The notes beneath the pieces were generated by a model that was not told where the DNA came from, searched no databases, and saw only the letters and a list, made by a program, of their open reading frames with translations. A stretch of DNA of 64,000 nucleotides from Paludibacter sp. (lineage in GTDB: Bacteria; Bacteroidota; Bacteroidia; Bacteroidales; Paludibacteraceae). The DNA is taken from contig JAQVAV010000003.1 of the NCBI GenBank assembly GCA_028690665.1, positions 1-64,000 on the forward strand, written 5' to 3'. A program made the translations under genes and the position numbers. Positions 4,254-58,353 of the stretch are shown here, in pieces. The stretch's first letter is position 1, and every line of letters starts with the position of its first letter.

Positions 4254-4438
4254 TGAACTCGTCTTGACTTTTCGTAGTAATTCTTTGTTTCAATAAAGAT
4301 TAGAAAAATAAGACAAAAGATTCCTCGATAGAATCAGAATTACAGAAATCTGTAGAAAATAAAATCTGTATTTTCTGTCTGAAAAGGGAATATAATACTC
4401 GTTAATTCTGCCTTGATTTAAAAGTCAAGATAAGTTCA
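4254..4438 (+). repeat. 185-bp element, copy 1, upstream of GH130 gene
   Basis: This block matches the reverse complement of 58169-58353 at 183 of 185 positions without gaps. The ends are imperfect inverted repeats: TGAACTCGTCTTGACTTTT at the left, and the complement of the right end reads TGAACTTATCTTGACTTTT (two mismatches). Internally there is a GATTC...GAATC dyad and a run of TCTGTA-like repeats. It ends 77 bp before the ATG of the gene at 4516 and has the same orientation relative to that gene as copy 2 has to its gene. It has no coding capacity. It could be a MITE-type element or a duplicated regulatory region; no target-site duplication is obvious. Confidence 0.85.
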
Positions 4439-4515
4439 GTTGAAATTAAAAAACAATTTTTATGGCTTTGTTCCATTTATAGTAACTACCTTTAGCCCAC
4501 ACTAAAAAAACATCT

Positions 4516-5985
4516 ATGTCAATAAATCTGAAGCGCAAAAATATAAAATTCAGTCCTGACCCATCGCACGTTATCGCAAGGTTCTTATTCATAACAGAAG
4601 AAAGGGCTATGAGCACAATCCGATCTGTATTGGGAATGCCGGAAGAGGAAGTTTCGAAGGCATTGAGTCCTGTATTAAGAGATTTTTCACTTCGCCACAG
4701 GAATATTTCCAAAATATTCGAGAAGCATTTTAATAAAATAGCTTATTTGTGTGTTAAATTGAATGTTGATCCTCACTCAATTCATTTTTCTCGAAAGATT
4801 TTAATTGGCTCTTATTTTACGATGGAATATTCTATTGAGTCAGCTGCATTTTTTAATCCTTCTATCGTTGAACATCCGGACCAGTCTGAAGTTTTGCCGG
4901 ACGAAAAAAGGGTTATTCTTAGTTTTAGAGCTACCGGTGAAGGTCACATTTCTTCTATCGTTTTTCGCACAGGTGTAATGGATAAAAATAATCATTTGAT
5001 TATTGAGCCAATTGGTAATATGCTCGAAGAAGCCGAACATATTCGCCGATATATATACGATAAGAAACCGTTTAAGGAGAAATTGGAAGAGATGAATTTC
5101 CATTCTACAATTCCGTCAGAAATAGTTCTCAATAAATTAAATGAAGAATTCACTTATGATGAGTTGAGCAAATGTATTGACGATGCGAAGCAATCACTTC
5201 AGTTAACCTCCGACAAAGAACTGCTTTTTAATCAACTTACATGGTTGGCTTCATCTCATTATGAGCTTGATTTTTCGTTAGATACCAACATTTCTGAACG
5301 AGTTATTTTTCCTGTTTCATCTAATGAAAAAAATGGGATTGAAGATGCTCGTTTTGTAAAATTTATCGATGAAAACAAAGAAGCAACTTATTATGCGACG
5401 TATACTGCTTACGATGGTACAACCATATTGCCTAAAATGCTTGACACCAAAGATTTTTATCATTTCAGAATACTACCGGTTCACGGCGAAATAGCCCAAA
5501 ATAAAGGGATGGCACTTTTCCCACGTAAAGTGAACGGAAAATATACCATGCTCTGTCGTTTGGATGGCTTTAATAATTATATTGCTTTTTCAGAAAATAT
5601 TAATGTTTGGCGTGAGGCAAAGCTACTACAAACTCCAAAATATTCTTGGGAGTTTGTTCAAATAGGTAATTGTGGTTCTCCTATTGAAACCGACGAGGGT
5701 TGGTTGGTAATTACTCATGGAGTTGGTCCAATGCGTGAATACTCATTGGGAGCTATATTGCTGGATTTGAATGATCCAACAAAAGTAATCGGGCGCTTAA
5801 AATCTCCTTTATTGATGCCTAATGAAGAGGAACGTGAAGGCTATGTACCCAATGTTGTTTATTCATGCGGTTCAATGGTTAACAACAACGATCTGATTAT
5901 TCCTTATGCCATGTCAGATTTAGCTTCAACTTATGCTACAGTTGATTTGAAAGAATTGTTGGTAGAATTAAAAAAACAAGTTTAA
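4516..5985 (+). CDS. GH130-like glycosidase/phosphorylase (COG2152 type)
   Basis: A cytosolic 489-aa protein without signal peptide. Residues about 235-480 look like the five-bladed propeller of GH130/DUF377 enzymes: NGIEDARFVKF (about 275), GMALFPRKVNGKY, NCGSPIETDEGWLVITHG and YVPNVVYSCG. GH130 members act on beta-mannosides by phosphorolysis or hydrolysis. The N-terminal 230 residues are extra compared with short GH130 phosphorylases (about 330-390 aa) and are typical of the longer COG2152 group often found near large glycosyltransferases. Such a glycosyltransferase is at 9460-11694. The 185-bp element lies immediately upstream. The substrate is unknown; mannose-containing glycan turnover is the best inference. 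Confidence 0.7.
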   Translation: MSINLKRKNIKFSPDPSHVIARFLFITEERAMSTIRSVLGMPEEEVSKALSPVLRDFSLRHRNISKIFEKHFNKIAYLCVKLNVDPHSIHFSRKILIGSYFTMEYSIESAAFFNPSIVEHPDQSEVLPDEKRVILSFRATGEGHISSIVFRTGVMDKNNHLIIEPIGNMLEEAEHIRRYIYDKKPFKEKLEEMNFHSTIPSEIVLNKLNEEFTYDELSKCIDDAKQSLQLTSDKELLFNQLTWLASSHYELDFSLDTNISERVIFPVSSNEKNGIEDARFVKFIDENKEATYYATYTAYDGTTILPKMLDTKDFYHFRILPVHGEIAQNKGMALFPRKVNGKYTMLCRLDGFNNYIAFSENINVWREAKLLQTPKYSWEFVQIGNCGSPIETDEGWLVITHGVGPMREYSLGAILLDLNDPTKVIGRLKSPLLMPNEEEREGYVPNVVYSCGSMVNNNDLIIPYAMSDLASTYATVDLKELLVELKKQV

Positions 5986-6189
5986 GAGAAATATCAATCA
6001 GTTCCGCTACACTTTTTCCACACCTACATTTTTTAGCAGATTAAATGTGTGAATGATGTAACTTATTCGCATAGTTGTGTAATACTTTCCGAATAGAATA
6101 AGAATACCTTTGTTTGATAGAAATATTACTTGAGAAGTAATCGAAATACAGAATACATCTCATTAACAAAACAGAATAAAACTAAAAAA

Positions 6190-7050
6190 ATGAACTACTT
6201 CTATTTAATTATCATACCAATTGTTCTGTTTTTTCTGGCAGGTATAAGAATTGTAAGACCCACCCACAGAGGACTTATGGAGCGACTTGGTAAGTACAAG
6301 AAAATAGCTAATCCGGGTTTTCATTGGATAATACCTATTATTGACCGTATATTTTTAGTGAATATTACCGAACAAATGATTGATGCTGATCCACAGGAAA
6401 TTATTACTAATGATAACCTGAATGCCAGTGTTGATGCACAGGTTTATTTCAGAGTAAAATCGGATGAGAAAAGTATCAAAGGCTCTACCTACGATGTAAA
6501 TAATTATCAGTGGCAGATTGTTAATTTAGCCAGAACAACTCTTCGCAATATAATAGGAACACTTACGCTGAAATCAGCGAACAGTGAACGAGGAAAAATT
6601 AACGCAGAATTACATGAAACCCTTCATAAAGAGACTCAAAACTGGGGAATAGAAATTATTCGTACCGAATTGAAACAAATTGACCCTCCGACGGATGTAC
6701 AGGAAACGATGAACAAAGTGGTGAAAGCTGAAAACGAAAAAATAGCTGCAATTGATTCCGCAACGGCAGCTGAAACTGTTGCAGATGGTATTAAACGGGC
6801 TAAAATTAAAGAAGCTGAAGGCTATAAACGTGCTAAAATACTACATGCCGAAGGTGAAGCCGAAGCCATTAGACTTGTAAATGAGGCTGCCGATAAATAT
6901 TTTGTAGGGAATGCCCAACTTTTGCGAAAAATAGAAGCTGTTGAAACATCTCTTGAAACGAATGCAAAAATTGTCGTTCCAACAGGAACAGAATTAATCA
7001 ATATTATAGGAGAAATGGCTGGCGTTGTGCCAATAGACCATAAACAATAA
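6190..7050 (+). CDS. SPFH/Band-7 (paraslipin-like) membrane protein
   Basis: A 286-aa protein with one N-terminal membrane helix (residues 1-18, FYLIIIPIVLFFLAGI) followed by an SPFH domain (about 20-190; RPTHRGLMERLGKYK, GFHWIIPIIDRI) and an alanine/glutamate-rich coiled coil (about 195-245). It matches the paraslipin/QmcA type, which forms oligomeric membrane scaffolds and affects membrane-protein quality control. I chose ATG 6190 because the helix then starts the protein; an upstream TTG at 6130 adds 20 polar residues with no support. It lies 204 bp after the GH130 gene and 111 bp before the cold-shock gene. Confidence 0.85.
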   Translation: MNYFYLIIIPIVLFFLAGIRIVRPTHRGLMERLGKYKKIANPGFHWIIPIIDRIFLVNITEQMIDADPQEIITNDNLNASVDAQVYFRVKSDEKSIKGSTYDVNNYQWQIVNLARTTLRNIIGTLTLKSANSERGKINAELHETLHKETQNWGIEIIRTELKQIDPPTDVQETMNKVVKAENEKIAAIDSATAAETVADGIKRAKIKEAEGYKRAKILHAEGEAEAIRLVNEAADKYFVGNAQLLRKIEAVETSLETNAKIVVPTGTELINIIGEMAGVVPIDHKQ

Positions 7051-7161
7051 AAAAACATTTATACACCTTAATACTAAGAAAATTATTAAAATGAGGATAT
7101 CTATTATTAACTGTAATACTCATACAATTTAATCTATTAGCATTAATTTAATTATTAAAAA

Positions 7162-7353
7162 ATGAATAAAGGAAAAGTGAAATTTTACAACGAATTAAAA
7201 GGATTCGGATTTATTAAAGACGAAGAATCAAACAAAGATTATTTTGTCCATTCAACAGGATTAAAAGATAAAATTAAAGATGAGGACGAAGTAACCTTTG
7301 ACCTTCAACAAGGAGAAAAAGGATTAAACGCCATAAATGTGAAACTCGTGTAG
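7162..7353 (+). CDS. cspA: Cold-shock domain protein (CspA family)
   Basis: A 63-aa protein that is a single five-strand OB-fold cold-shock domain. RNP1 reads KGFGFI and RNP2 reads DYFVH. It binds single-stranded RNA or DNA and melts RNA structure at low temperature or under stress. The start codon follows an A-rich leader (ATTAATTTAATTATTAAAAAATG). A rho-independent terminator at 7379-7406 closes the unit and also serves the convergent gene at 7423. The length is slightly shorter than E. coli CspA (70 aa) but normal for Bacteroidetes. Confidence 0.92.
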   Translation: MNKGKVKFYNELKGFGFIKDEESNKDYFVHSTGLKDKIKDEDEVTFDLQQGEKGLNAINVKLV

Positions 7354-7378
7354 TTTGATATAAAAATGTCTTAAACAT

Positions 7379-7406
7379 AAAAATCCGCAAATTGCGGATT
7401 TTTTTA
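7379..7406. terminator. Bidirectional terminator (csp / DUF6320 gene)
   Basis: AAATCCGC and GCGGATTT pair around AAATT, followed by a T-run on + and preceded by A residues that give a short T-run on the minus strand. It lies between convergent genes ending at 7353 and 7423. Confidence 0.85.
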
Positions 7407-7422
7407 TTTCATTTTGTGTATT

Positions 7423-8142
7423 CTAAAGATGAAAAAAGCGTTTTAAGTCAGTTCCTTTTTTTAGACGACGATGTGCATATAATAGAATAATCGAAACAAA
7501 CGCAACAGCAACCATTACAATAATGCTCCATCCTAAACTAAGACGGCTTTCAATGTAGATAGAGATAATTCCGTCGATGCAAACACACAGCAAGCCTAAA
7601 GCAATAATCGAGTAAGCAATAAGATTTAACTCTTTTTGTTTTGCTTTCCTTTCAATCAAAATAAAGGATAAAACGATAATATATGCAGCCAACAACAAGG
7701 GAATTCCAAGTTTCGTATCCCATCCGTTATTTCCTGTATAATTATCAAGGAGCAAAAGAAAAACAGTTGATGCTATAAAACTCAAGAAAAACAATGAAAA
7801 TATTTTTTTATTCAAAAACAAAACAAGAGTAATATTTACGAATAAAATAAATCCGGTAGTTATGATGTATTTTGACCAAGTCATGGAATGGTTTATCACT
7901 AAATTGATAGTTAAAGTAATAAGCATACCTGAGAAAAGAATGATACCGGCAATTTCCCAAAATATCTTTCGTTTTTGCAATTGGTTTAATTTCTGAAAAT
8001 CAGTTAACGCTTTATTTTTTGTTTCACCAAAAGTTAAATGATCTAATTGAGCACTATTTTTATCTAATACCGGCTCACCGCATAGCGAACAATAATTCGC
8101 ATTTTCTTCCAGTTCTACTCCGCAATTTTGACAGCAAATCAT
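7423..8142 (-). CDS. DUF6320-like zinc-ribbon membrane protein
   Basis: A 239-aa protein starting with a zinc ribbon (CQNCGVELEENANYCSLCG, two CxxC pairs within the first 21 residues), then a linker and about six hydrophobic helices between residues 62 and 228. This layout matches DUF6320 proteins, which in many Firmicutes and Bacteroidetes are encoded next to an alcohol-acetyltransferase-like gene. The same pairing occurs here: the acyltransferase ends 11 bp upstream. The function of DUF6320 is not established. A membrane partner of the acyltransferase is the simplest inference. Confidence 0.7.
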   Translation of the reverse strand: MICCQNCGVELEENANYCSLCGEPVLDKNSAQLDHLTFGETKNKALTDFQKLNQLQKRKIFWEIAGIILFSGMLITLTINLVINHSMTWSKYIITTGFILFVNITLVLFLNKKIFSLFFLSFIASTVFLLLLDNYTGNNGWDTKLGIPLLLAAYIIVLSFILIERKAKQKELNLIAYSIIALGLLCVCIDGIISIYIESRLSLGWSIIVMVAVAFVSIILLYAHRRLKKGTDLKRFFHL

Positions 8143-8153
8143 TTTCTAAATTT

Positions 8154-9437
8154 TTAATATATCGTTTCTGTGCTAATGCCTTGATTTTTCAAAAAACAAT
8201 TAAATTTGTTTTCAAATTGTTTCGATTTCGTTATGTTGCTAAAATTCAATACCAGTTTATCTCCATAGCCGATTACCCCACAGTGTATTTTAATCGTTTT
8301 GTCGGGCGGAGGCAGAATAACAATAAAATAATCAATCATATCATTAATTTCGGGCGGCAATTTTACTCTTCCCAAATTGGAAATCACTCCACTATATTGT
8401 GCTGCCCCCAAGGAATTATATTTCATACGCAGGAGAATACTTTTAAGAAAAAGTGGAACAGCCCGAATGTAGATTTTTTTTTCACTACCCACATTTCTTG
8501 CTATATATTTATTAATTAGTTTTTCATCCGTTTCCAATTCCATTTGGTGAAAGACAGATTTAAGTATTTCATCAAAGGTATAATGTCCTAAACGCAAATC
8601 TATTTCGGGCATCACAAACAACGAAAAATTCCGCATAGTTTTCGTCGTAAAAATATTTCGCAAATTGATAGGCACCTCTATTCGTAGTCGTTTGTTTTTT
8701 CTGAATTTATTTGAAAGAGGCAAAGTTTCAAAAATTTCCTGTAATACATACAAGTATACCGATGTCAGGTAAACGGTAATACTTACATTCTTAGCGTTTG
8801 CCACCTGTTTGATTTGGTTAATTGAAATTATACTTGCAGATTGCTCAAATCGTGGTATTGTATTTAGTTGAAATGGAAGATGAAAAGCTTTCGAGCGTTT
8901 TACGGCAGGTGGAATCTCTTCTTTAAAATACCTCTTGTATGCGTCTTCGTATTCTTCTTCTAATACTGGAGAATCCGGTTTTATATAAGCATATTCAACA
9001 GGAATATTTATTCCACAAATTTTCGAATATTCAATCAGAATAGTTTTTAAAAACTCAAAACCACCATTGCCATCAGTTATAGTGTGTGAAAATTCAACAC
9101 TTATACGGTTATCACGCACTAAAATTCGTACAAGGACTTCACCTTTTCGAAACCTTCTGCATAAAAGCGATTTGTCAACATTGATAGGAATATGCTCCGC
9201 CAGATTTTCCAGATAAAACCAAAAAAAGCCCTCTTTAAGTTGGACTTTGTAGTAGGGAAAACGTTTTTCCACTAACAGCACGGTTTTTTGAAATAGTTTA
9301 ATTTTAACAGGCTGTTTTAATACGGCTGTTAACCTAAAAACGGCTGAAACTTCATCAGAAATAATTGCAGGATAAATCTTTGCCGCATTATCTAACGGAA
9401 GCCAAAATCGATTTTTCGAGAGTGACTGTGTTTTCAT
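8154..9437 (-). CDS. HxxxDG acyltransferase (condensation / alcohol acetyltransferase-like)
   Basis: This 427-aa soluble protein carries the CoA-dependent acyltransferase superfamily motif HTITDG (HxxxDG) near residue 138, within EFSHTITDGNGG. The second half has the expected bridging region (IEVPINLRNIF, then SGVISNLGRVKLP). Members move acyl groups to alcohols or sugars, or form amides. No carrier-protein or NRPS gene is nearby, so a stand-alone acyl transfer to a glycan or lipid is more likely than peptide synthesis. It is 22 bp after the glycosyltransferase and 11 bp before the DUF6320 gene, so the three are almost certainly one operon. The acceptor is unknown. Confidence 0.75.
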   Translation of the reverse strand: MKTQSLSKNRFWLPLDNAAKIYPAIISDEVSAVFRLTAVLKQPVKIKLFQKTVLLVEKRFPYYKVQLKEGFFWFYLENLAEHIPINVDKSLLCRRFRKGEVLVRILVRDNRISVEFSHTITDGNGGFEFLKTILIEYSKICGINIPVEYAYIKPDSPVLEEEYEDAYKRYFKEEIPPAVKRSKAFHLPFQLNTIPRFEQSASIISINQIKQVANAKNVSITVYLTSVYLYVLQEIFETLPLSNKFRKNKRLRIEVPINLRNIFTTKTMRNFSLFVMPEIDLRLGHYTFDEILKSVFHQMELETDEKLINKYIARNVGSEKKIYIRAVPLFLKSILLRMKYNSLGAAQYSGVISNLGRVKLPPEINDMIDYFIVILPPPDKTIKIHCGVIGYGDKLVLNFSNITKSKQFENKFNCFLKNQGISTETIY

Positions 9438-9459
9438 CTCATTTATTCCGTTTTAAAAA

Positions 9460-11694
9460 TTATATTACTTTGTGAAAATCATCATAAGCTTGTAATACAG
9501 TCAAATATGAAATTAAATATGCCAGCGAACTCTCGGCTCCCTGATTGCGGTTTACACCATAATTTTCAAATCCGTCGCAACACCCTTGAGTCTCAAAATC
9601 ATAAAGACTCATCCGGAGGTCGTTCTCACCCAAAAACCACAAGAATGAAGTGTACAGTTTGTTTAGATATTCTTTATCTTTTGTGAGATGAAATGCCTGA
9701 TGATACATTAAAATGGATGCCATAGCATCGATAGGCTGTTGTGCAAAAACAGACCGCTCTCCCTCTTTTTTAAACCATTTTTCGTTTCCAATAATCGAAA
9801 GATAATTGTCTTTCAACGTATGTTTAGTCAGAAAATTCATAGATTCAATTGCAACTTTAGTGATTTTGCTGTCATTCAGTATTTGGGCTGAATGTAAAAG
9901 GGCTAAAGGTAATATGCCATTGTCGTATGCCAATAGAGATTCGAACCATTGCCATTCGGAACTTTGATTTTCATTGTAATGTTTAACTAAAATATTTGCC
10001 ATGTTCCGTAGTCTTTCGGTCATTGAGTCGTCTGAAGGATTATTTTTCAGATAGAAACAAATACCAATCATTGTATTTGCAATGCCTCTGATGGATTTTA
10101 ATTTTTCAAAATTTGGTAATGCATTAAAGAAAATTAGTCTTCCTGTTTGATAATATGCATCATTGGGTGCTTTATACAACAAATATCCCAGCGCCCATAT
10201 TGTTCTGCCAAAAGAATCTTCGGAACCTACTTCATCAAGATATTTGCGGCTAAAACTCAAAAAATTACGAAAAGTACCATCAGTATTCTGCAAATAATGA
10301 ATATAACTAAGATAAATTGGCGACAATTCAAGTGCGCGCTTATCTTTCATTTGCTCATAAGCCATCAATACCATAAGTAATGCACGCGAGTTATCGTCGA
10401 GACAATAGCCTTCTTTCAGGTTTGGAATTCCAAATTTTGCATGTTGGATAATGCCAGTATCATCGGTTAACCGGTTGATGTGTGCCAACGAAAAAGGAGG
10501 TAGCGCCAACAAATCTAATTCAACCTCTTTTTTTTCTGATGCAGTTAACTGGGCGGTTAAAACTGTTTGAGCCAGTTCTAAATATCTGTCGCCAATTTTT
10601 GGCCACGTAATATTTTTACCGTAATCAGCAGCTTGCTTTTTAAGGCCAATCATTTTTACCGGATGACCCAACAAATCGTTTATGATAGTGCTTAACTCTT
10701 CATAATCATTAAAATTAAACAATAAACCTCTCCCATCTGCCAGCAATTCTTCAGCATGCCAATAGGGAGTTGAAATTACCGCAGTACCAACACCTACGGC
10801 GTAGGAGAGTGTTCCACTGGTAATTTGAGCTTCGTTAACATAAGGAGTAATGTAAATGTCTGAAGCATATAGGTATTTAAATAAGTCTTGCTCGTCGATA
10901 AATTCGTTGAGAAACACTACATTTTTTTCAAGATGTAAGGAATTTACCAAACGCATAAGATAAATACGGTATTCTTCTCCCGAATGTCTTATCACATTGG
11001 GGTGAGTTTTCCCTAAAACAATATAAACCACGTTGGGATATTTTTCTACAATCTTCGGAAGGGCTTTAATTACTGTTTCAATGCCTTTGTTTCGACCTAC
11101 AAAACCAAAAGTTAAGAGTACTTTTTTGTTTTCAAGTTTGAATTCTTTTTTTGCAGCTTCGGGAGTAAAATGGATATTGGGAACACCGTGTTCGATTAAG
11201 GCTATTTTTTCTATAGGAACCTGATAAACTTCAGTTAAAAATTCAATAGCTTTGTGGCTCATTACTACAATTTTCTGTGCCATTTTACAAATTTCCTGTA
11301 AAACCGCTTTTTCGTTGTAGGAGGGATTTTTAAGAACGGTATGAAGAGTTACAATCAGTGGTATTTCCAAACGATACAATAACGGAAGAATGTACACCCC
11401 GCTTTCTCCGCCAAAAATTCCAAATTCATGTTCCAATATGCAAAGGTCGGCGCCACTAAGATTAATGTATTTAACTGCTTCTATATAATCGCTTTGGTAA
11501 TCTTGTTTGATGGTTAACTTAACCTCTTCGGGGTATTTGTAAGTGAGGTCATTATCGTTTAGAGCAACCACAAAACCTGTATTTATTTTTTTTTTACTTT
11601 CAATATTCTTTAGTACAGAATTATACAAATTGTGCGTAAAAGTACCAATGCCACATTCTCGAGGAACGTATGTACCAATAAAAGCTATTTTCAT
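9460..11694 (-). CDS. Two-domain glycosyltransferase (GT4 plus alpha/alpha-toroid)
   Basis: A 744-aa cytosolic protein. Residues 1-390 are a GT-B fold of the GT4 type: GTYVPRECGIGTFTHNLY at the start, LTFGFVGRNKGIETVIKALP for the donor domain, and EAQITSGTLSYAVGVGTAVI for the sugar-nucleotide E-x7-E-like region. Residues about 400-744 are a separate all-helical domain (GYCLDDNSRALLMVLMAYEQ; GSEDSFGRTIWALGYLL) that looks like an alpha/alpha toroid of glycosidase or epimerase type. This two-domain design is recurrent beside COG2152/GH130 genes, one of which lies at 4516. It begins the GT-acyltransferase-DUF6320 operon. Donor and acceptor are unknown; a mannosyl donor is a guess based on GH130. 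Confidence 0.8.
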   Translation of the reverse strand: MKIAFIGTYVPRECGIGTFTHNLYNSVLKNIESKKKINTGFVVALNDNDLTYKYPEEVKLTIKQDYQSDYIEAVKYINLSGADLCILEHEFGIFGGESGVYILPLLYRLEIPLIVTLHTVLKNPSYNEKAVLQEICKMAQKIVVMSHKAIEFLTEVYQVPIEKIALIEHGVPNIHFTPEAAKKEFKLENKKVLLTFGFVGRNKGIETVIKALPKIVEKYPNVVYIVLGKTHPNVIRHSGEEYRIYLMRLVNSLHLEKNVVFLNEFIDEQDLFKYLYASDIYITPYVNEAQITSGTLSYAVGVGTAVISTPYWHAEELLADGRGLLFNFNDYEELSTIINDLLGHPVKMIGLKKQAADYGKNITWPKIGDRYLELAQTVLTAQLTASEKKEVELDLLALPPFSLAHINRLTDDTGIIQHAKFGIPNLKEGYCLDDNSRALLMVLMAYEQMKDKRALELSPIYLSYIHYLQNTDGTFRNFLSFSRKYLDEVGSEDSFGRTIWALGYLLYKAPNDAYYQTGRLIFFNALPNFEKLKSIRGIANTMIGICFYLKNNPSDDSMTERLRNMANILVKHYNENQSSEWQWFESLLAYDNGILPLALLHSAQILNDSKITKVAIESMNFLTKHTLKDNYLSIIGNEKWFKKEGERSVFAQQPIDAMASILMYHQAFHLTKDKEYLNKLYTSFLWFLGENDLRMSLYDFETQGCCDGFENYGVNRNQGAESSLAYLISYLTVLQAYDDFHKVI

Positions 11695-11812
11695 ATTCTA
11701 ATTTTATTAATTTACATAACGGTACATGAACCCCAAATTACAATCTATAAAAATTAATTTACATTATTACTGTTGGGATTTTTTATGTAAGTGCTAACGT
11801 TTTGAGTGAAAT

Positions 11813-11935
11813 TTATAATTCATTTTTTTTATTTTTCTCAGCCTTTTTTTCTGCTTTTGCTGTTCTTTTTTCTTTTAGACTTTTAACAGCTTCTTTTTTG
11901 TTTCCTTTCGATTTTGCATTTTTATCTTTCGACAT
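11813..11935 (-). CDS. 40-aa lysine-rich basic protein
   Basis: A 40-codon frame from ATG 11935 encodes MSKDKNAKSKGNKKEAVKSL and ends ...KKNEL. Almost half of the residues are lysine or arginine, with alanine and glutamate, so a single charged helix or a disordered nucleic-acid binder is likely. It sits between the cupin gene (33 bp upstream) and the glycosyltransferase (118 bp downstream) on the same strand. The clean codon structure and gene-like spacing favour a real gene. The function is unknown. Confidence 0.6.
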   Translation of the reverse strand: MSKDKNAKSKGNKKEAVKSLKEKRTAKAEKKAEKNKKNEL

Positions 11936-11968
11936 AATATTGATTTATTAGTGTTTAATTACAATATG

Positions 11969-12319: not shown

Positions 12320-12396
12320 TTGTTTTGAATTGAAAGTAAAGATATTACATTTTAACCCGTAAAATGTTATACAATTGAAAAGATATGTTACATTAT

Positions 12397-12957: not shown

Positions 12958-12985
12958 ATCCTTTAAATTTTTAACGGAATAGAGT

Positions 12986-16062: not shown

Positions 16063-16065
16063 ACC

Positions 16066-48263: not shown

Positions 48264-48548
48264 TCTGTGTAGTGATTAGTCTATAGTAAATATAGAAATA
48301 CACGGGCGGCTGACATAGGCCAGCGATAATTTATTGGCAAAAACACCATTGACGGGGATTTAGAGTCAAAAAAACTCGTTCTCCCTCGCGGATATTGTTT
48401 TGGATCAGATATTCTGAGGGTGTCCAATAAGTAATTTATCCACGAGTTACCCTTAGTTTGCAGTATGGAAATTTATGTTCAGAATAGGCAGTTATTGGGC
48501 ACCTCCTTATATATAAATAGTAATCAACTCTTTGCTACAACTTTTTTC
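48264..48548. other. Intergenic interval before RluA-type gene end
   Basis: About 285 bases without a gene. It has a lone GAGGGTGTCC motif at 48416-48425, similar to the left arm of terminators at 28702 and 59750 but without its pairing arm nearby. No strong terminator is seen for either convergent gene. Confidence 0.35.
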
Positions 48549-49451: not shown

Positions 49452-49484
49452 TCAATTTATTTTGACTGAATTTTACTCAGTAAT

Positions 49485-51062
49485 TTATTCGGGAACAACT
49501 ATTCCCATTCCTTTTGCCACTGCAATGGCAGCATTTTCTCCATCGATGGCCGACGATGTAATTCCGCCGGAATATCCGGAACCTTCTCCTGCCGGAAACA
49601 ATCCTTTTACATCGGGGTGCTGTCCTGTCTCGGGATCGCGGGGAATACGAACAGCCGAAGATGAGCGGGTTTCAACCCCGACAACAACTGCTTCGTTAGT
49701 AAGATAACCGTGCATTTTCCGGTCGAACATTTTAAAGGCATCCCTCAAACGGCTTGAGATATGCTCGGGTAACCAAAAATGCATAGGAGAAGCAATTAAA
49801 CCGGGCATATAAGAACAATCCGGAAGATCGGCAGAAACTTTACCCCGGACAAAATCCAACAAACGCTGAGCCGGAGCTGTCTGTCCCAAGCCGCCGTTAT
49901 TTTTATAGGCAAGATTTTCAAGATACTGCTGAAACCTCAATCCGGCCAAAGCTCCATACTGTTGGAATTCTTCGGGAATATCCTGAGGCTGAATTTCAAC
50001 AACAATTCCGGAATTAGCATAAGGAGAATTACGACGCGATGCAGACATGCCGTTTACCACAATTTCCGAATCGGAAGTTCCGGCAGGGACAATACGACCT
50101 CCCGGGCACATACAAAACGAATAAACGCCACGTTCGTTCACCTGCTCCACCAAGCTGTAACTTGCAGCCGGAAGATATTCGCCACGCTCTTTACAATGAT
50201 ACTGGATGCTGTCGATCAGCGTTTGAGGATGCTCTACCCTCACTCCCATGGCAAATCCTTTCGGTTCGAGACGAATATGTTGGGTATCGAGCATTTCGAA
50301 AATATCGTGAGCCGAATGCCCGGTAGCAAGTATCATTGCATCTGCCTGATACGTATTTCCAAGATTGGTTTTACAACCCTTCAACGCACCATTCTCAATG
50401 ATTATTTCGGTCAGCTTCTCTTCAAAATGAATTTCTCCACCACAATCTGTAATGGTTTTACTCATATTGGCAACTACAAGCGGCAATTTATCGGAACCGA
50501 TATGCGGATGAGCGTCGTACAGGATTTCTTCGGCAGCTCCATGATGATGAAAAATTTCATAGATACGGTGTACATTTCCCTTTTTCTTGGAACGGGAATA
50601 AAGTTTACCATCCGAAAAAGTTCCGGCTCCTCCTTCACCAAAACAGTAATTTGATTCCGGGTTAAATCCTTTTTTCAAATTAAGCTGGGCAATATCCGAT
50701 TTCCGGTTTTGGGCATTTTTACCTCGTTCGAGGATAATTGGTTTTAATCCAAGTTCGATCAATTTCAACGCGGCAAAAAGTCCGGCAGGACCGGCACCTA
50801 TAACTAAAACAGGTTTTTTATCACCAACCTGTTCATAATTAAAAACCTCGTAAGTTGTTGCAGACGGCTGTTCATCGACAAAGACATCAATACTCAGATT
50901 GATTCTAGGTTGAAATGAACGTGCATCAATAGATTTCCGGACAATGCGCATTGCAGTAATACTGTCCGGTCGAATCTTTAATTTTGTCGAAACAATTTTT
51001 TTAATTTGCTCTATTTTCTCCGCCTGTTCAGGAGATATAATTATTTGTACTCGGGTATTCAT
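49485..51062 (-). CDS. FAD-dependent oxidoreductase (COG2509 type)
   Basis: A 525-aa flavoprotein. The FAD/NAD Rossmann motif is VLVIGAGPAGLFAALKLIEL (about residue 80), and GRKVR-like binding residues recur. It ends ...GLFPAGEGSGYSGGITSSAI, the FAD-contact motif of this class. The first 75 residues form a small ferredoxin-like domain before the FAD fold, typical of the uncharacterised COG2509 dehydrogenases. The redox substrate is unknown. It is cotranscribed with the downstream RluA-type gene. Confidence 0.88.
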   Translation of the reverse strand: MNTRVQIIISPEQAEKIEQIKKIVSTKLKIRPDSITAMRIVRKSIDARSFQPRINLSIDVFVDEQPSATTYEVFNYEQVGDKKPVLVIGAGPAGLFAALKLIELGLKPIILERGKNAQNRKSDIAQLNLKKGFNPESNYCFGEGGAGTFSDGKLYSRSKKKGNVHRIYEIFHHHGAAEEILYDAHPHIGSDKLPLVVANMSKTITDCGGEIHFEEKLTEIIIENGALKGCKTNLGNTYQADAMILATGHSAHDIFEMLDTQHIRLEPKGFAMGVRVEHPQTLIDSIQYHCKERGEYLPAASYSLVEQVNERGVYSFCMCPGGRIVPAGTSDSEIVVNGMSASRRNSPYANSGIVVEIQPQDIPEEFQQYGALAGLRFQQYLENLAYKNNGGLGQTAPAQRLLDFVRGKVSADLPDCSYMPGLIASPMHFWLPEHISSRLRDAFKMFDRKMHGYLTNEAVVVGVETRSSSAVRIPRDPETGQHPDVKGLFPAGEGSGYSGGITSSAIDGENAAIAVAKGMGIVVPE

Positions 51063-51082
51063 ATTTTTTGAAAAAATGTTTG

Positions 51083-51090
51083 CAAAGATA
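51083..51090 (-). promoter_or_regulatory. -7 box of the FAD oxidoreductase gene
   Basis: TATCTTTG on the minus strand, 20 bp before the ATG, giving a very short leader. Confidence 0.45.
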
Positions 51091-51105
51091 CATAAAAACT
51101 AATGA

Positions 51106-52317
51106 CTAATTAATTCTCACTGTGAGTTTCACAGTCCTGTCGGTTTTCGACCAGACAGGGGACTTTTTTATCAAACGCAAAAACTCCTCTTCAAGTTCTT
51201 CACAATTGCATTTTATTATCTGAACATCGACAGGTTTGCCTGATTCATCAATACGAAATTTCACTTTTAATGTTGATTTTTCGCCATCACACAAATATTT
51301 TAAACGATGCTCGTTGAAATATTTTTTAAATTCTTTTTCGCCAAACTTATAGCTACCGGCAGCTACTCCGGCAACATTACCAGTAAGTGCCGAATCAATA
51401 TTCCCGGGACTAACCTTCTTATTCACAATTATAACTTCATTTAAAGCGAGATTATCGGGCTTTAACCTGAATATAGCACTGTCTCCGGGCAAAGAAATTT
51501 CTTCTTTCTGATAACCAATATAAGAAGCCCATAATTTATCGTCTTTGTTTTTAGAAACAGGCAAAACAAACCGTCCGTTCAAATCGGTAACCACTCCGTC
51601 ATAGGCGCTGGTATATTTCACTCTAGCACCTATCATAGGTTCTCCATGTTCATTCAACACACGTCCGTAGATAATTTTATTCTGTTTATTTACAGATTTT
51701 AGCGAACTTGTTCCACGAATCCTTATTACCGGATTGGATTTTGCTTCCGATTTATCGGTGTCAGTCCTATCCGAAGCGGCAACTGTCAGCAAAGACTTTA
51801 CTGAAACAGCTTCATCGTTACCATCAGTCTCTTCAACAACATTATCTTCTTTATCTTCAACAGAAACTGCTGCTATTCTCTTATTTTCAGCAACAATTAA
51901 TTTCTTAGGTTTTTTCTTAGGTTCTGTTTTTACAACCTCTTTATTTTCCTGTAATTCAGGATATTCATCCGACTTTGCAACCGGCAATTCTTTCTGTTTG
52001 GCTTCCGGAACAATATCTTTCACAGCCAACGGTTCAGGAGAGTTTTCCGACTGTCTGAATAACACTGAAATCCCGATTAAAAGTGTCAATGCGGCAGCAA
52101 CGGACAAAATCCACATACGTAAATGAACTGGGCTTTTCTTATTTGATTTCTTGTCAATTTCTTTTTCAAGCTCCCCGATTACAGACAAATGATCGGCCTG
52201 AATACCATCGAAACCATCGATAGCATCTTCAAAGAAGGGATCATTCAAAGCTTGTTGCTCTAATTTATTGGCTTCACGCCCCATCCTTTTTCCCTGTATG
52301 TAATCTTTAAAAGTCAT
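51106..52317 (-). CDS. Anti-sigma-like membrane protein with CarboxypepD_reg and TonB-like ends
   Basis: A 403-aa single-pass membrane protein. The cytosolic part (residues 1-66) is followed by one helix (LRMWILSVAAALTLLIGISV, about 67-86). Then come an acidic/lysine-rich stalk (about 90-180), a carboxypeptidase-regulatory-like domain (IIYGRVLNEHGEPMIGARVK to about 290) and a C-terminal TonB-like region (about 320-403; LKVKFRIDESGKPVDVQIIK). Its ATG overlaps the sigma factor stop by four bases, so it is most likely that sigma factor's membrane regulator. This design is recurrent in Bacteroidetes sigma/VWA loci. Confidence 0.8.
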   Translation of the reverse strand: MTFKDYIQGKRMGREANKLEQQALNDPFFEDAIDGFDGIQADHLSVIGELEKEIDKKSNKKSPVHLRMWILSVAAALTLLIGISVLFRQSENSPEPLAVKDIVPEAKQKELPVAKSDEYPELQENKEVVKTEPKKKPKKLIVAENKRIAAVSVEDKEDNVVEETDGNDEAVSVKSLLTVAASDRTDTDKSEAKSNPVIRIRGTSSLKSVNKQNKIIYGRVLNEHGEPMIGARVKYTSAYDGVVTDLNGRFVLPVSKNKDDKLWASYIGYQKEEISLPGDSAIFRLKPDNLALNEVIIVNKKVSPGNIDSALTGNVAGVAAGSYKFGEKEFKKYFNEHRLKYLCDGEKSTLKVKFRIDESGKPVDVQIIKCNCEELEEEFLRLIKKSPVWSKTDRTVKLTVRIN

Positions 52318-52901
52318 TTAGTTATTTTTTCCTTTCCGCTCAGGACTTTCAGAATGCAATTTTTCAGATTCCGTTTTCCATTTTGTATATAACTTTTTAC
52401 CTTACTCAAAGCATAACCGGTAATTTCAACTATATCGGCGTATGATTGTTCCTCTATGTAAAACAGCTGAATGCTCCGGTGCTGTTCTTCCGGCAAAGTC
52501 CCCATGCAATAGTCCAACGCAGCGACTTCTTCCGCTGTTTGCGGTTTATCTGTTAGAGTAAATAATGCTTGATTTTCCACAAAAGCATCTTCAATATTAA
52601 TATATTTCACACGATTTTCCTTTCTTAAAACATGCAAACAATGATTCTTAACCACTGAATAAAGCCATGTATTGAAATTTGATATTTCGTATTGTAACAC
52701 TTTCTCTGTAAGAGTTTGAAAAATATCCATAACGGCATCTTTTGCAGCCTCCTGTTCGCCCAGATATTTAAGACATGTACCGTAAATTTTCGGAATATAA
52801 CGCTTGTACAATTCACCAAAGTATGATACATCTTTACTTTCGGCATACAGCCTTAGCAATTCTGCATCATCCATATTGTTTATTTCTTTATTGTTTTTCA
52901 A
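52314..52901 (-). CDS. ECF-type RNA polymerase sigma factor
   Basis: A 195-aa sigma-70 family protein with region 2 (FGELYKRYIPKIYGTCLKYL, then AAKDAVMDIFQTL and NTWLYSVVKNHCL) and region 4 (LPEEQHRSIQLFYIEEQSYA, then DIVEITGYALSKVKSYIQNG). It is translationally coupled to the membrane regulator downstream. The divergent VWA surface protein at 53130 is a likely target. ECF systems of this form usually sense envelope stress. Confidence 0.92.
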   Translation of the reverse strand: MKNNKEINNMDDAELLRLYAESKDVSYFGELYKRYIPKIYGTCLKYLGEQEAAKDAVMDIFQTLTEKVLQYEISNFNTWLYSVVKNHCLHVLRKENRVKYINIEDAFVENQALFTLTDKPQTAEEVAALDYCMGTLPEEQHRSIQLFYIEEQSYADIVEITGYALSKVKSYIQNGKRNLKNCILKVLSGKEKITK

Positions 52902-52932
52902 GCAGTTATATTTTATTGCATTATTTTTTTAC

Positions 52933-52940
52933 AAAAATAG
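52933..52940 (-). promoter_or_regulatory. -7 box of the ECF sigma gene
   Basis: TATTTTTG on the minus strand, 31 bp before the ATG. A promoter for the divergent VWA gene is not clear; it may use the ECF sigma factor itself. Confidence 0.4.
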
Positions 52941-53129
52941 AAAAATTTTTCTGTCCAATTTATGGAATCCGGGAGCAAAATGGATCTAATAGACAGAAAC
53001 AGGATATTAAAGTCTGGACATTGGAACAAAGAACAAAGAATAATGTACCAATGAGACAATTAGCCAATGTGCTTCATGAACTCTATAAACTACTAAAAAA
53101 CAAAAATACTAATATAAAAAACAAACATC

Positions 53130-54998
53130 ATGAAACAATTTAAAATTATGCTGACAATAAGCTTATTATTCATAGCTCTGTCATCAATGCAAGCGCAAAA
53201 TCTTACTGTAAACGGAAAAGTAACAGACTCACAACAAAATCCAATTCAAGGAGCAGTTGTAACAGAAAAAGGGACTACCAACGGAACGGTAACAGGTTTG
53301 AACGGAGAATTCAGTCTTAAGACTTCAAAGGGTAAAACATTAGTCATAAAAATGATTGGTTATAAAACAGCTGAAATCGTTGTTAATAAAACATCTTTAC
53401 ATATTATTCTAAAAGAAGATCCGAATACATTAAACGAATTTGTAATTTGCAACGACAATGTGTCAACCGCCTTGCAGGGACAGGTATCAGGAATATCTAC
53501 AAAAAATAAAACAATAAGGATCCGGGGTGTCGGTTTTACAGGAAATACTCCCCGGATAAACCCGATATACGGTTATACAGAAGGCAACACCGAAGAATAT
53601 CAATCCTTTAAAGAAAACCTGTTTATTCCAGTTAGTTCCGAAGCGCTTTCTACATTTTCGCTGGATGTTGATGCAGCATCTTATAGCAATGTCCGTCGCA
53701 TGATTAATCAGGGACAATTGCCGGACAAAAATGCTGTACGTGTGGAAGAAATGATAAATTATTTCAACTACGACTATCCTCAACCCAAAGGAAAAGACCC
53801 GGTCAGCATCACTACCGAAACAGCCGATTGCCCGTGGAATCCCGAATACAAATTAGTCCGTATCGGTGTAAAAGCCCGCGAAATTTCTTCGGAAAATCTA
53901 CCGGCATCCAACTTTGTATTTCTGATTGATGTCTCCGGGTCCATGCAAAGTCCCAACAAATTAGAACTTATAAAATCGTCTCTCAAACTACTTATCAATA
54001 ATTTACGGAACAAAGACCGGGTAGCTATCGTCACCTATGCCGGAGCCGCCGGAGAAGCCCTGCCATCGACTTCGGGAAGCGACAAACAAAAAATCAAAGA
54101 CGCGCTTGAACAACTTACCGCAGGCGGTTCGACAGCCGGTGGAGCAGGAATAGAGTTAGCCTACAAAATAGCGGAAAAGAATTTTATCAAGAGCGGAAAC
54201 AATCGTATCATCCTCTGTACCGACGGTGACTTTAATGTAGGGATTTCGTCCAACGAAGAACTTGAAAATATGATTGAAACCAAGCGTAAAACAGGCATAT
54301 ATCTTACTGTTCTCGGTTACGGCATGGGTAACTACAAGGATAGCAAATTACAAACTTTGGCCGAAAAAGGAAACGGGAATCATGCTTATATCGACAATAT
54401 TCAGGAAGCAAACAAAGTGTTGGTCAGTGAATTTGGCAGTACCATGTACACTGTAGCCAAAGACGTAAAAATTCAGGTAGAATTCAATCCAGCTCAAGTA
54501 AGCGCCTACCGTCTGGTAGGTTACGAAAGTCGTCTGCTCAACAAAGAAGATTTCAACGATGACACCAAAGATGCCGGTGAACTTGGTGCCGGGCATACAG
54601 TAACAGCACTTTACGAAGTTATTCCTGCCGGGGTAAAAAATAAATATGGCGGCGTAGATGATCTCAAATATCAGGAAACGAAACAAAAATCGACTAAAGG
54701 AGCATTCTCCGACGAATTAATGACCGTAAAACTGCGTTATAAACTTCCGGACAGCGATACTAGTTCCAAAATGGAAATTCCGGTGTTAGTCAATAGCAAT
54801 CAAAAAATGTCAGAAGATTTCAGCTTTGCAGCCGCAGTTGCCATGTTTGGACAGTTGCTTCGCGATTCTGATTTCAAAGGTGAAGGCACCTACCGGAAAG
54901 TTATTGAACTTGCCCGACAGGGATTGGATAAAGACGAAAACGGTTATCGTAGGGAGTTTATCCGGTTGGTGGAATCCGTGGAAGGAATGGCAAAATAA
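53130..54998 (+). CDS. VWA-domain surface protein with CarboxypepD_reg (YfbK-like)
   Basis: A 622-aa exported protein. A signal peptide (IMLTISLLFIALSSMQAQ) is followed by a carboxypeptidase-regulatory-like domain (about 25-105; TVNGKVTDSQQNPIQGAVVT) and a short segment resembling a TonB-plug piece (ALQGQVSG, then TIRIRGVG). A von Willebrand A domain at about 265-440 has the MIDAS FLIDVSGSMQSPNK, and the C-terminal region is of the YfbK type. It may bind a metal-dependent ligand at the cell surface. It is divergent from the ECF sigma/anti-sigma pair, and the anti-sigma protein contains the same CarboxypepD_reg and IRIRG elements, supporting a joint system. Confidence 0.88.
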   Translation: MKQFKIMLTISLLFIALSSMQAQNLTVNGKVTDSQQNPIQGAVVTEKGTTNGTVTGLNGEFSLKTSKGKTLVIKMIGYKTAEIVVNKTSLHIILKEDPNTLNEFVICNDNVSTALQGQVSGISTKNKTIRIRGVGFTGNTPRINPIYGYTEGNTEEYQSFKENLFIPVSSEALSTFSLDVDAASYSNVRRMINQGQLPDKNAVRVEEMINYFNYDYPQPKGKDPVSITTETADCPWNPEYKLVRIGVKAREISSENLPASNFVFLIDVSGSMQSPNKLELIKSSLKLLINNLRNKDRVAIVTYAGAAGEALPSTSGSDKQKIKDALEQLTAGGSTAGGAGIELAYKIAEKNFIKSGNNRIILCTDGDFNVGISSNEELENMIETKRKTGIYLTVLGYGMGNYKDSKLQTLAEKGNGNHAYIDNIQEANKVLVSEFGSTMYTVAKDVKIQVEFNPAQVSAYRLVGYESRLLNKEDFNDDTKDAGELGAGHTVTALYEVIPAGVKNKYGGVDDLKYQETKQKSTKGAFSDELMTVKLRYKLPDSDTSSKMEIPVLVNSNQKMSEDFSFAAAVAMFGQLLRDSDFKGEGTYRKVIELARQGLDKDENGYRREFIRLVESVEGMAK

Positions 54999-55017
54999 AA
55001 AATTCTATAAAAATTAT

Positions 55018-55052
55018 CCAACAGGATTCAGAAATCAAATCTGAATCCTGTT
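55018..55052 (+). terminator. Terminator of the VWA gene
   Basis: AACAGGATTCAGA and TCTGAATCCTGTT make a 13-base perfect stem with a seven-base loop, followed by ATTTTAT. Confidence 0.85.
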
Positions 55053-55090
55053 ATTTTATATTCACCAAGGTTGTGTATAATTTTAAATAG

Positions 55091-55909
55091 CTATTGCTTT
55101 GGCCTGACTTTATCTATGCCTTCAACCGGCGTAGTATATTTGATTCTGACCTGTTCCGGATTTAAAAGATTCTTTTTTAATGGCTTGATGTTTAGTTCTT
55201 CAATCCCTTCTACAGCCAGCTTGGCCATTTCCATGGCACCGGCATCCTGAAAATGAGTATCATCCTGTCTTCCGGCAGGTAATGACTTCCATTTACCGGG
55301 TTCGACATTCATATATAAATGTTTGGATCCTTCAATACCATATTTTTTAAGAACTTCCGTACTTTTAGCCTTCATATCTATCAATGGAACGTTCATGTCT
55401 TTAGCAACTTTTTTCATTATTTCCGGATAAACTGGATGCGTATCGACAGGATTTCCTACGGAGTCGAATTTACGGCGGGCTACAGATGTGCACAATATCG
55501 GATGAGCTCCCTTATCTAAAACATCTCTGACCATCCTGCGTAAATTAGCTTCATATTGATCCTGTGGTGTATATGATTTTTTTGTTTCCACTTCATCATT
55601 GTGGCCAAACTGAATAAAAACATAGTCTCCTTTTCCCATCCGGCCAAGTGCAAAATTCCAACGGCCTTCTGCTATAAACGTTTTTGTACTTCTACCGTTC
55701 CTTGCATGATTTTCAACAACTACATTATCGTTAAAAAACGAAGGAAAAACCATCCCCCAGCCTCTTTCAGGATTTCCGGCAATATCCGGTTTATCAGCCA
55801 TGGTTGAATCGCCAATCATAAAAACCTTTACTGGTCTGTTTTTCATCGAGCATAAAGCCGCAAATGCTAAAAATGGCATCATAAAAAATATAATCTTTTT
55901 CATTTCCAA
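55091..55909 (-). CDS. Rhamnogalacturonan acetylesterase (SGNH, CE12-like)
   Basis: A 272-aa secreted esterase with signal peptide (KIIFFMMPFLAFAALC). SGNH blocks are MIGDSTMADKP (nucleophile Ser), NHARNGRSTKTF, FIQFGHNDEVE (block III GxND) and DDTHFQDAGA (Asp-His). It removes acetyl groups from rhamnogalacturonan I so that lyases and hydrolases can act. It is last of three minus-strand pectin genes (GH105, CE8, CE12), spaced about 22 bp apart, clearly one operon. Confidence 0.93.
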   Translation of the reverse strand: MEMKKIIFFMMPFLAFAALCSMKNRPVKVFMIGDSTMADKPDIAGNPERGWGMVFPSFFNDNVVVENHARNGRSTKTFIAEGRWNFALGRMGKGDYVFIQFGHNDEVETKKSYTPQDQYEANLRRMVRDVLDKGAHPILCTSVARRKFDSVGNPVDTHPVYPEIMKKVAKDMNVPLIDMKAKSTEVLKKYGIEGSKHLYMNVEPGKWKSLPAGRQDDTHFQDAGAMEMAKLAVEGIEELNIKPLKKNLLNPEQVRIKYTTPVEGIDKVRPKQ

Positions 55910-55931
55910 TATCTATCTAAGCTAATTAATC

Positions 55932-56954
55932 TTATTTCAGTACACTGTTTTGAGGATTCCAATTATCATTCCCTTTCAAAACATTTTCGACAGTCCACTC
56001 AGCAGCCTGCTTTTTATTAAGTAAATACGACCATTTTACCCGCTTGCTAACATCCGCTCCCGGGCCAGCATTTCTATATTCTGCATAAAATGTTGTTTTC
56101 TCAGCCTGAGGCTTTTTCCAGTTGTGCCATCCTTCCGGACGAATATGAGCACCCATTTCGCATTCTCGAAATACTACTTTTGCATAATCTCTCCAGGGCC
56201 GGCCTAAATAGACTTTATGCACATCTGACTCTGCAGTAAGCCTGCATTTATAAAATAAATATCCGAATTTTGTCGACTCATGCGTTGCGGCAGCCGTTAT
56301 GTACGACTCCCGTAAACTATGGATTTCACAATCATCAAAAACAGCAGTCGCCTTTCCAAAAATAAAATCGGTAGATCCTTCTATATAGCAATTTTTATAA
56401 TACTGGCGACTATTTTCTGCATAAGTATAAAGAGTATCCTGAAAACCTAAGAAACGACAATTATTGAAGACGCAACGGTCAGCTCCGACTAATACTGCTA
56501 CTGCTTGTCCTATCGGGCCTGCGGTATTTTGGAAAGTTATATTTTCCGCACAAAAATCATGTCCAAAAACAAAACATGTAGAAGATCCCGAAGTCCCAGT
56601 ATTTTCGCCTAAATTAGTTTGCTTTTGAGCCCAGTCTCCATTGGTAATGACTGTTTTCCGAACATTTTCTCCTCTAAATGTGACCAGTTCTTTCGAGGCA
56701 GGTAAAGTTAGCTTTTCTTTATAAATTCCGTTTTTTATATAAATAATTGTTCGTACTTTTCTGTAATCAGGAATAGCATTAACAGCAGCCTGTATGGAAG
56801 CGAAGTCTCCGGCCCCGTCCTGAGAAACAATATAAGTTACGACTGTATCGGGATTTTCTATCTGTTGATTATTAGAATATACATTTACGCAACTAAACAA
56901 CAATATCGCTAATACTAAAACAGTTGTGGAAACATTTATTTTCAAAAAACACAT
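55932..56954 (-). CDS. Pectin methylesterase (CE8)
   Basis: A 340-aa exported right-handed beta-helix. The signal region is LVLAILLFSCVNVYS, with a cysteine that may make it a lipoprotein. Conserved elements: YIVSQDGAGDFASIQAAVNA, IYIKNGIYKEKL, GFQDTLYTYAENSRQYYKNC, GSTDFIFGKATAVFDDC (catalytic Asp) and YLGRPWRDYAKVVF (Arg/Trp of the active site). It de-esterifies homogalacturonan. It is the middle gene of the pectin operon. Confidence 0.94.
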   Translation of the reverse strand: MCFLKINVSTTVLVLAILLFSCVNVYSNNQQIENPDTVVTYIVSQDGAGDFASIQAAVNAIPDYRKVRTIIYIKNGIYKEKLTLPASKELVTFRGENVRKTVITNGDWAQKQTNLGENTGTSGSSTCFVFGHDFCAENITFQNTAGPIGQAVAVLVGADRCVFNNCRFLGFQDTLYTYAENSRQYYKNCYIEGSTDFIFGKATAVFDDCEIHSLRESYITAAATHESTKFGYLFYKCRLTAESDVHKVYLGRPWRDYAKVVFRECEMGAHIRPEGWHNWKKPQAEKTTFYAEYRNAGPGADVSKRVKWSYLLNKKQAAEWTVENVLKGNDNWNPQNSVLK

Positions 56955-56975
56955 AATGAATAAAGTTTCTATGAT

Positions 56976-58154
56976 TTATTTTTTAGACAATTCAAGAGCA
57001 GCCAAAATGAACGGTCCGACAACTTTAGGATCATCACTGCGAACGGGCTCGCTTATATAATACTGATAGGATCCATCTCGATATGGATTTCCTCCCAAAC
57101 CGGCAACCGAACAAGCTTTTGTTATCGAAACCGTACTATCTGCATTTTGTATTGTACTGAATTTTACAAGTCCCTGAAATGCTTTTTCTGCTTTTTTCAT
57201 AAATTTCTCAGGCAAATAGCCCTTATGAACTCCCTTGGCCATCGCATACGAAAACATAGCCGTACCGGAAGACTCAAGATAATTTCCGGTCTTTTTAGGC
57301 ATATTAGTCACCTGATACCACATACCTGTTTTTTTATCCTGATATTTAAGGAGAACTGTACACTCCCGGTTTAGTATTTTAATCAAAAAAGCTCTGTCCT
57401 GATGATTCACTGGAAGGTAATCCAGAACATCTACTATTGCCATAACATACCAACCAATACTGCGACTCCAAAAATTGGGAGACTGGCCTGTCATCGGATT
57501 AGCCCATTTTTGAGTATGGCTTTCGTCCCAGCCATGATAGTTCAACCCAGTTTTAGGATCTTTTGTATATTTATCGCAAACATAAAACTGATTGGTTACA
57601 TCATTAAAAATCTGGGGCTGATCAAAAATGGCTCCATACCTTGTATAAAAAGGAGTTCCCATATACAACCCATCCAACCAGACCTGATGCTCATACCTTT
57701 TTTTATGCCAGAACGCCCCTTCTTTCACACGTGGATGCGTATAAAGTTGCTCACGAAGAGTCTGAATTGCTTTTAAATACTTTTTATCCTTTGTTGCAGT
57801 ATATAAATCAAAAAGAAAATTACCCCCGTTCAACTTATCAATATTATAATCGGACATTTTATAGGTAAGTATCTCACCATCATCGTTGATAAAATAATCC
57901 GCAAAAGTTTTTACATAATCGAAATATTTTTTATCGCCAGTGGTAAGATACATTTGCATCATTGCTTTGGCAATAAGACCCTGAGTATAATCCCATTTTG
58001 GAGTTGATAAAAAATCAACGGTCCAAAGCTCAGGATTGTGTTTCATTTCTGAATCAGCCACTTTTACCGACCATTCGGCATAATTAAACGGCTCTTTTGC
58101 ACTAAGATTAAACACAAACACATATAATAAAACTACAAAAAAAAGTTTCTTCAT
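56976..58154 (-). CDS. GH105 unsaturated uronyl hydrolase
   Basis: A 392-aa secreted alpha/alpha-barrel enzyme with signal peptide (KLFFVVLLYVFVFNLSA). The family motif HQVWLDGLYMGTPFYTRYG carries the catalytic aspartate, and GWDESHTQKWANPMTG and WSRSIGWYVMAIVDVLDY line the active site. GH105 enzymes hydrate the unsaturated galacturonyl end left by pectate or rhamnogalacturonan lyases. It is first in the pectin operon. The second 185-bp element ends 14 bp before its start codon. Confidence 0.94.
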   Translation of the reverse strand: MKKLFFVVLLYVFVFNLSAKEPFNYAEWSVKVADSEMKHNPELWTVDFLSTPKWDYTQGLIAKAMMQMYLTTGDKKYFDYVKTFADYFINDDGEILTYKMSDYNIDKLNGGNFLFDLYTATKDKKYLKAIQTLREQLYTHPRVKEGAFWHKKRYEHQVWLDGLYMGTPFYTRYGAIFDQPQIFNDVTNQFYVCDKYTKDPKTGLNYHGWDESHTQKWANPMTGQSPNFWSRSIGWYVMAIVDVLDYLPVNHQDRAFLIKILNRECTVLLKYQDKKTGMWYQVTNMPKKTGNYLESSGTAMFSYAMAKGVHKGYLPEKFMKKAEKAFQGLVKFSTIQNADSTVSITKACSVAGLGGNPYRDGSYQYYISEPVRSDDPKVVGPFILAALELSKK

Positions 58155-58168
58155 GATAAAATATTATT

Positions 58169-58353
58169 TGAACTTATCTTGACTTTTAAATCAAGGCAGA
58201 ATTAACGAGTATTATATTCCCTTTTCAGACAGAAAATACAGATTTTATTCTCTACAGATTTCTGTAATCCTGATTCTATCGAGGAATCTTTTGTCTTATT
58301 TTTCTAATCTTTATTGAAACAAAGAATTACTACGAAAAGTCAAGACGAGTTCA
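58169..58353 (-). repeat. 185-bp element, copy 2, upstream of GH105 gene
   Basis: Read on the minus strand it matches 4254-4438 at 183 of 185 positions; the two differences lie in the central part (ATCAGGATTA for ATCAGAATTA, and GTAGAGAATA for GTAGAAAATA). It fills nearly the whole region upstream of the pectin operon, 14 bp from the ATG, so it probably includes or supplies the promoter. I see no canonical TAnnTTTG inside it. The interval 58354-58640 beyond it holds nothing else recognisable. Confidence 0.85.

Follow-up and report, generated by a model that had tools for sequence, protein, structure and literature searches.

The window, by which we mean the whole stretch of 64,000 nucleotides that was analysed, contains two copies of a short element, each placed in front of a gene for a carbohydrate-active enzyme. 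Copy 1 consists of a 183-bp core (positions 4255..4437, forward strand) and lies 77 bp before the start of a GH130 gene (4516..5985, forward strand; PF04041, 118.9 bits). Copy 2, with a core of the same length (58170..58352, reverse strand), lies 14 bp before the start of a GH88/GH105 gene (56976..58154, reverse strand; PF07470, 387.3 bits). PF07470 is the GH88 family of Pfam, which we take to cover GH105-like proteins. Both genes are neighbours outside the element, and the orientation of element to gene is equal in the two cases, so that the distances, enzyme types and like orientation given by an earlier, sequence-only reading of this DNA were confirmed.

That reading had described twin near-identical elements of 185 bp, 54 kb apart and with imperfect inverted repeats at their ends. 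Both were located where it had placed them, and their cores agree at 181 of 183 bases without a gap, leaving two differences. The match does extend over 185 bp; the true element, however, measures 183 bp, since the longer figure takes in one flanking base at either end. The ends are 18-bp terminal inverted repeats (TIRs), GAACTCGTCTTGACTTTT and GAACTTATCTTGACTTTT, identical at 16 of 18 positions. In copy 1, a TIR scan placed the left repeat, GAACTCGTCTTGACTTTT, at 4255..4272 on the forward strand and the right repeat, GAACTTATCTTGACTTTT as read on the reverse strand, at 4420..4437. In copy 2, the left repeat in element orientation occupies 58335..58352 (reverse strand) and the right one 58170..58187 (forward strand). 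The longest stop-free stretch in either copy is 44 aa.

The triplets that flank copy 1 form an exact duplication, with AGT at both 4252..4254 and 4438..4440. Those that flank copy 2, TTT at 58167..58169 and ATT at 58353..58355, differ by one mismatch and form an imperfect target duplication.

Copies of the element across the genome

A search of the own genome (4.05 Mb on 29 contigs) with the element found at least 25 full-length copies, spread over 15 contigs, plus partial ones. This count is a lower bound, with 40 of 85 candidates scored. At least 23 full-length copies thus exist beyond the pair in the window, which excludes a chance match between the twin elements. A scan of the genome for the TIR yielded 84 matches at up to two mismatches versus 6 for a reversed control.

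When the element is taken as GAA...TTC, the flanking triplets are exactly duplicated over 3 bp in 21 of the 25 copies, where base composition leads one to expect 2.6% (binomial p of about 6e-30). The four copies without an exact duplication are copy 2 of the window and three others, among them the copy at C19:1598, which is flanked by ATT and GTT.

Alignment of the 25 cores, all of which have their ends and parts of their interior in common, separated three subfamilies and two diverged copies outside them. Subfamily A, to which both window copies belong, comprises 13 young copies that are 96-100% identical (gap columns left out) and occurs in a shorter form and in a form that is 9 bp longer. 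Subfamily B has 3 copies (98-99% identical) and subfamily C has 7 (92-100%), some of which contain a highly stable internal hairpin. In four young copies of subfamily A, the 9-bp insertion stands beside a near-copy of itself, and both length forms have multiplied.

None of the copies lies inside a called ORF of at least 80 aa, even though coding sequence makes up about 83% of the fetched DNA. In two cases a copy overlaps the end of an ORF, one of these being a doubtful ORF of 108 aa; gene calls throughout this work are mechanical ORFs. The intergenic siting of the copies probably reflects that such places are AT-rich and harmless. At two loci, copies were seen in pairs, about 450 and 630 bp apart (G000:C18:115482-116508 and G000:C1:70815-71655, respectively).

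A candidate IS5-family partner and the probable mode of movement

Two of the TIR pairs in the genome enclose considerably longer DNA, of 928 and 929 bp. The 929-bp element, at G000:C28:110541-111469, is an IS that is flanked by AAA on both sides and encodes an intact transposase of 278 aa. This protein matches the IS5-family transposase model NF033580 of NCBIfam with 118.3 bits (cutoff 110). Among Pfam families, DUF4096, DDE_Tnp_4, and DDE_Tnp_1 score above their cutoffs, with DDE_Tnp_1_2 falling just below. The second IS, on contig C27, has an ORF interrupted by stops and is flanked by ATA and AAT. The same IS, with the same ends and 83-88% DNA identity, is carried by three other species of the genus. 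Where both flanks of an IS copy could be read, an exact 3-bp duplication was found in 2 of 4 copies (AAA for L065 and ATA for L079); the triplets are unequal for L064 and L081, and L080 ends at a contig edge.

The nearest named IS that we found among plasmids is ISBf6, an IS5-like element of Bacteroides, the transposase of which is 58% identical over 99% of the query. Its ends begin with GAAGT and have 12 and 13 of 18 positions in common with those of the IS found here, differing in the TIR interior.

Beyond the 18-bp TIR, the MITE copies and the IS have little in common, and even the end sequence is GAACT in most young MITEs versus GAAGT in the IS. A lenient comparison returned an additional 56-bp stretch for subfamily A (66% identity, E of 0.003), which scores like the TIR itself and which we take as weak. 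The same holds for subfamily B, where the match at one end extends to 41 columns at 76%. An origin of the MITE by simple internal deletion of the IS was considered, and is not supported by so little shared sequence. A true internal-deletion remnant of the IS does exist elsewhere in the genome: at L068:1192-1376 (contig C9 of G000), IS positions 587-727 are joined to 887-929.

The element is a MITE family with IS5-family ends. The many copies, the TIRs, the 3-bp duplications, and the IS with the same TIRs in the same genome together indicate that this family is probably mobilised in trans. In such a mechanism, the terminal repeats would be recognised by an IS5-family DDE transposase acting in trans, and each insertion would duplicate 3 bp of the target. 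As mobiliser, the intact 278-aa transposase encoded by the 929-bp IS, between nearly the same ends, is the strongest candidate. We infer that this IS on contig C28, or a close relative that has since been lost, is probably the mobiliser and that the movement was probably recent. With high confidence, we read the window pair as members of a MITE family that an IS5-family transposase probably moves in trans with a 3-bp duplication, their siting in the window being most likely due to chance.

This kind of element is already familiar, and the family presented here is a new example of it. In the open-licence literature, no description of this particular element was found. Its closest precedents are the MITEs of Porphyromonas gingivalis (MITE239, MITE464/PgRS, MITE700, and BrickBuilt), which are likewise short repeats with IS5-family ends in a Bacteroidales host (PMC4596501). 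They are present in some 10-20 copies each, and their TIRs match those of the full-length IS5-family elements ISPg1, ISPg3, ISPg4, and ISPg9; the TIR sequences, however, are different from those found here. BrickBuilt, which the same source describes as always intergenic and as free of any transposase remnant inside, additionally differs in containing a minisatellite and in its irregular target duplications, as opposed to the regular 3 bp seen here (PMC4596501).

The ATR repeats of Neisseria meningitidis are similarly presented there as MITEs assigned by their TIRs to an IS5-family parent, ISNme1, although the host is unrelated (PMC4596501). A lineage-specific MITE of Cardinium is alike in that its upkeep is attributed to parental IS copies that are still intact, but it derives from the IS982 family (PMC9769881).

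Gene context and alternative readings

Two alternatives to chance siting assign the elements a role in carbohydrate metabolism. According to the first, a MITE with a hairpin or promoter would alter polysaccharide-enzyme genes in a like manner when landing before them, and some of these landings would have been selected; we consider this very unlikely. According to the second, raised by the sequence-only reading, the element would be a mobile cis-regulatory module carrying a promoter or operator, which recruited genes into one sugar regulon. This, too, we judge to be very unlikely, for all that both window copies stand before carbohydrate enzymes in the same orientation.

Counts of neighbouring genes lend the module some support. 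Seventeen of the 25 copies adjoin a facing gene of 200 aa or more; of the other 8, five have short ORFs and three lie in convergent gaps. When the nearer of such genes was counted, glycoside hydrolases made up 5 of 17, versus 3 of 40 in a random gene sample (p = 0.043). With every adjacent facing gene of this size included, they made up 7 of 22 versus the same 3 of 40 (p = 0.018). The random sample consisted of 40 annotated ORFs out of 66 (at least 200 aa) and includes stretches that adjoin known copies (L139, L153, L155, and L156) and were left in as drawn. The five glycoside hydrolases among the nearer genes are GH130, GH88/105, GH43, an arabinofuranosidase, and a match to GH99 that lies below Pfam's cutoff.

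This excess depends on how the genes are counted, however. After removal of the window copies that had prompted the analysis, 3 of 15 nearer genes (p = 0.20) and 5 of 19 facing genes (p = 0.06) remained; removal of the weak GH99 match as well left 2 of 15 (p = 0.42) and 4 of 19 (p = 0.14). If only the GH99 match is omitted and the window copies are kept, p becomes 0.11 for the nearer gene and 0.044 for all facing genes. The inclusion of a protein with a pullulanase-type X25 domain among the glycoside hydrolases of the random sample raises p higher still. The excess of carbohydrate genes is weak and leans on the prompting copies, with p ranging from 0.018 to 0.11 with them and from 0.06 to 0.42 without them, by way of counting; in the latter case it does not reach significance at the 0.05 level. 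The neighbouring genes also include those for HSP90, DnaJ, an aminotransferase, SAM synthetase, and AraC.

The placement of the copies relative to genes also speaks against a regulatory module. Tandem, divergent, and convergent arrangements occur 13, 8, and 3 times among the 24 copies for which both neighbours were called, versus 13.2, 7.8, and 3.0 expected from the intergenic background, for which length-weighted intergenic gaps were taken from 266 kb of stretches around copies plus the window. Three copies thus sit between convergent genes, and in the 13 tandem gaps element and genes run the same way in 8 cases and opposite ways in 5 (p = 0.29).

The -7 motif of Bacteroidetes promoters is TAnnTTTG. 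In a scan of the 13 young copies, it was found within a single one, where a private base change had created it. A consensus scan, which a promoter may escape, found no such motif in either window copy, nor was a sigma-70-type match found around copy 1. With an arrangement equal to background, an 8:5 orientation, and no shared promoter motif found, the idea of a mobile sugar-regulon module receives little support apart from a modest excess of glycoside hydrolases. Of the interpretation offered by the sequence-only reading, the non-autonomous, MITE-like insertion is well supported, whereas most tests gave no support to a promoter carrier or regulon module. Most likely, the window copies came to lie before carbohydrate genes by chance.

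Another possibility is that the copies are structured RNAs or mobile hairpins, acting like a UTR or terminator, whose positions are held by selection. The full-length strand of window copy 1 does fold well (-42.8 kcal/mol, z of -4.1), and a subfamily C copy even more so at full length (-63 kcal/mol, z of -7.1), both better than all of 200 shuffles. The inverted ends, together with an imperfect palindrome, can explain such a fold, however, as the TIRs alone favour it, and three sub-stretches that lack both ends reach z values of only -0.4 to -1.3. In addition, Rfam gave no match in the window at gathering scores, no terminator-like site was found around copy 1, and the copy positions track the background of intergenic DNA. 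Altogether, we hold a selected RNA structure to be extremely improbable. A transcribed copy would nonetheless form a long imperfect hairpin, and single copies may therefore affect the expression of a neighbour; there is no indication of a regulatory role shared across copies. Finally, a promoter region might have been copied by segmental duplication or by gene conversion. This would suit a lone pair lying 54 kb apart and differing at two positions, but with at least 25 copies, shared ends, and 3-bp duplications that are mostly exact, it has next to no probability compared with transposition.

Relatives and a second MITE family in the genus

A search of 60 genomes with the element sequence found matches in 3, namely the own genome, G027, and, weakly, G030. 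The match in G030 (E of 8e-4) has no TIR-like end and was set aside as chance, while the related element in G027 has no exact 3-bp duplication by the ends chosen here. A pattern search of contigs returned two records, of which one is a Paludibacter MAG and the other a Cytophagales record (L076) that has one lone TIR-like end, for which an exact search of 8 kb found no partner.

Absence of the element could be examined at an orthologous locus. The neighbours of the copy at C1:33420, encoding an aminotransferase and a DUF4395 protein, could both be matched to a single contig in 15 of 47 other genomes. With all 25 elements as queries, no match in the gap between them exceeded 27 bp at an E of 0.01 in any of these 15 relatives, and none had a TIR there within 3 mismatches; the positive control, the own locus, was found. 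The flanking genes at this locus and at that of the DnaJ/TPR copy are about 70-79% identical in the relatives. As intergenic DNA aligns poorly between species, and with one genome per species, the comparison established absence at one locus in 15 of 15 relatives, but no exact empty site was obtained. Along with the many copies, TIRs, duplications, and the IS with the same TIRs, this absence lends good support to the proposal of a recent non-autonomous, MITE-like insertion.

The TIR itself is found more widely than the element. At up to one mismatch, it occurs in 22 of 48 genomes of the genus (own genome included), against 7 matches in all for a reversed control, and match counts are high in G018 and G023. 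Paired TIRs were found in at least 6 related species. From 16 fetched stretches, 15 elements were analysed (L172 was left out), and 13 of these 15 have an exact 3-bp duplication. In length, 13 fall between 149 and 227 bp, one measures 359 bp, and one 1064 bp. A single family, present in G061, G017, G013, G062, and G012, accounts for 13 of the 15.

This second family aligns with the MITE family of the window only at the ends, over 17-43 bp. By these alignments, one TIR is common to unrelated interiors across the genus. A striking repeat is explained here as an ordinary mobile element and tied to a putative mobiliser that the same genome encodes. Moreover, the genus provides a small natural series, in which one set of IS-like ends is combined, in different species, with at least two MITE interiors unrelated to each other, and which allows one to ask where MITE interiors that are not deletions of a parent IS originate.

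Two further observations were made on these elements. In the second MITE family (L157-L166, L168, and L170; 149-227 bp), the interior matches itself in both orientations. The 1064-bp element of G013 (L167:305-1368, G013:C73:12704-13767) is bounded by the same TIRs, with ATT duplicated on either side, and contains no ORF longer than 85 aa. Over its right 180 bp, identity with a MITE of G013 is about 89%, and it may be a MITE that captured some 880 bp.
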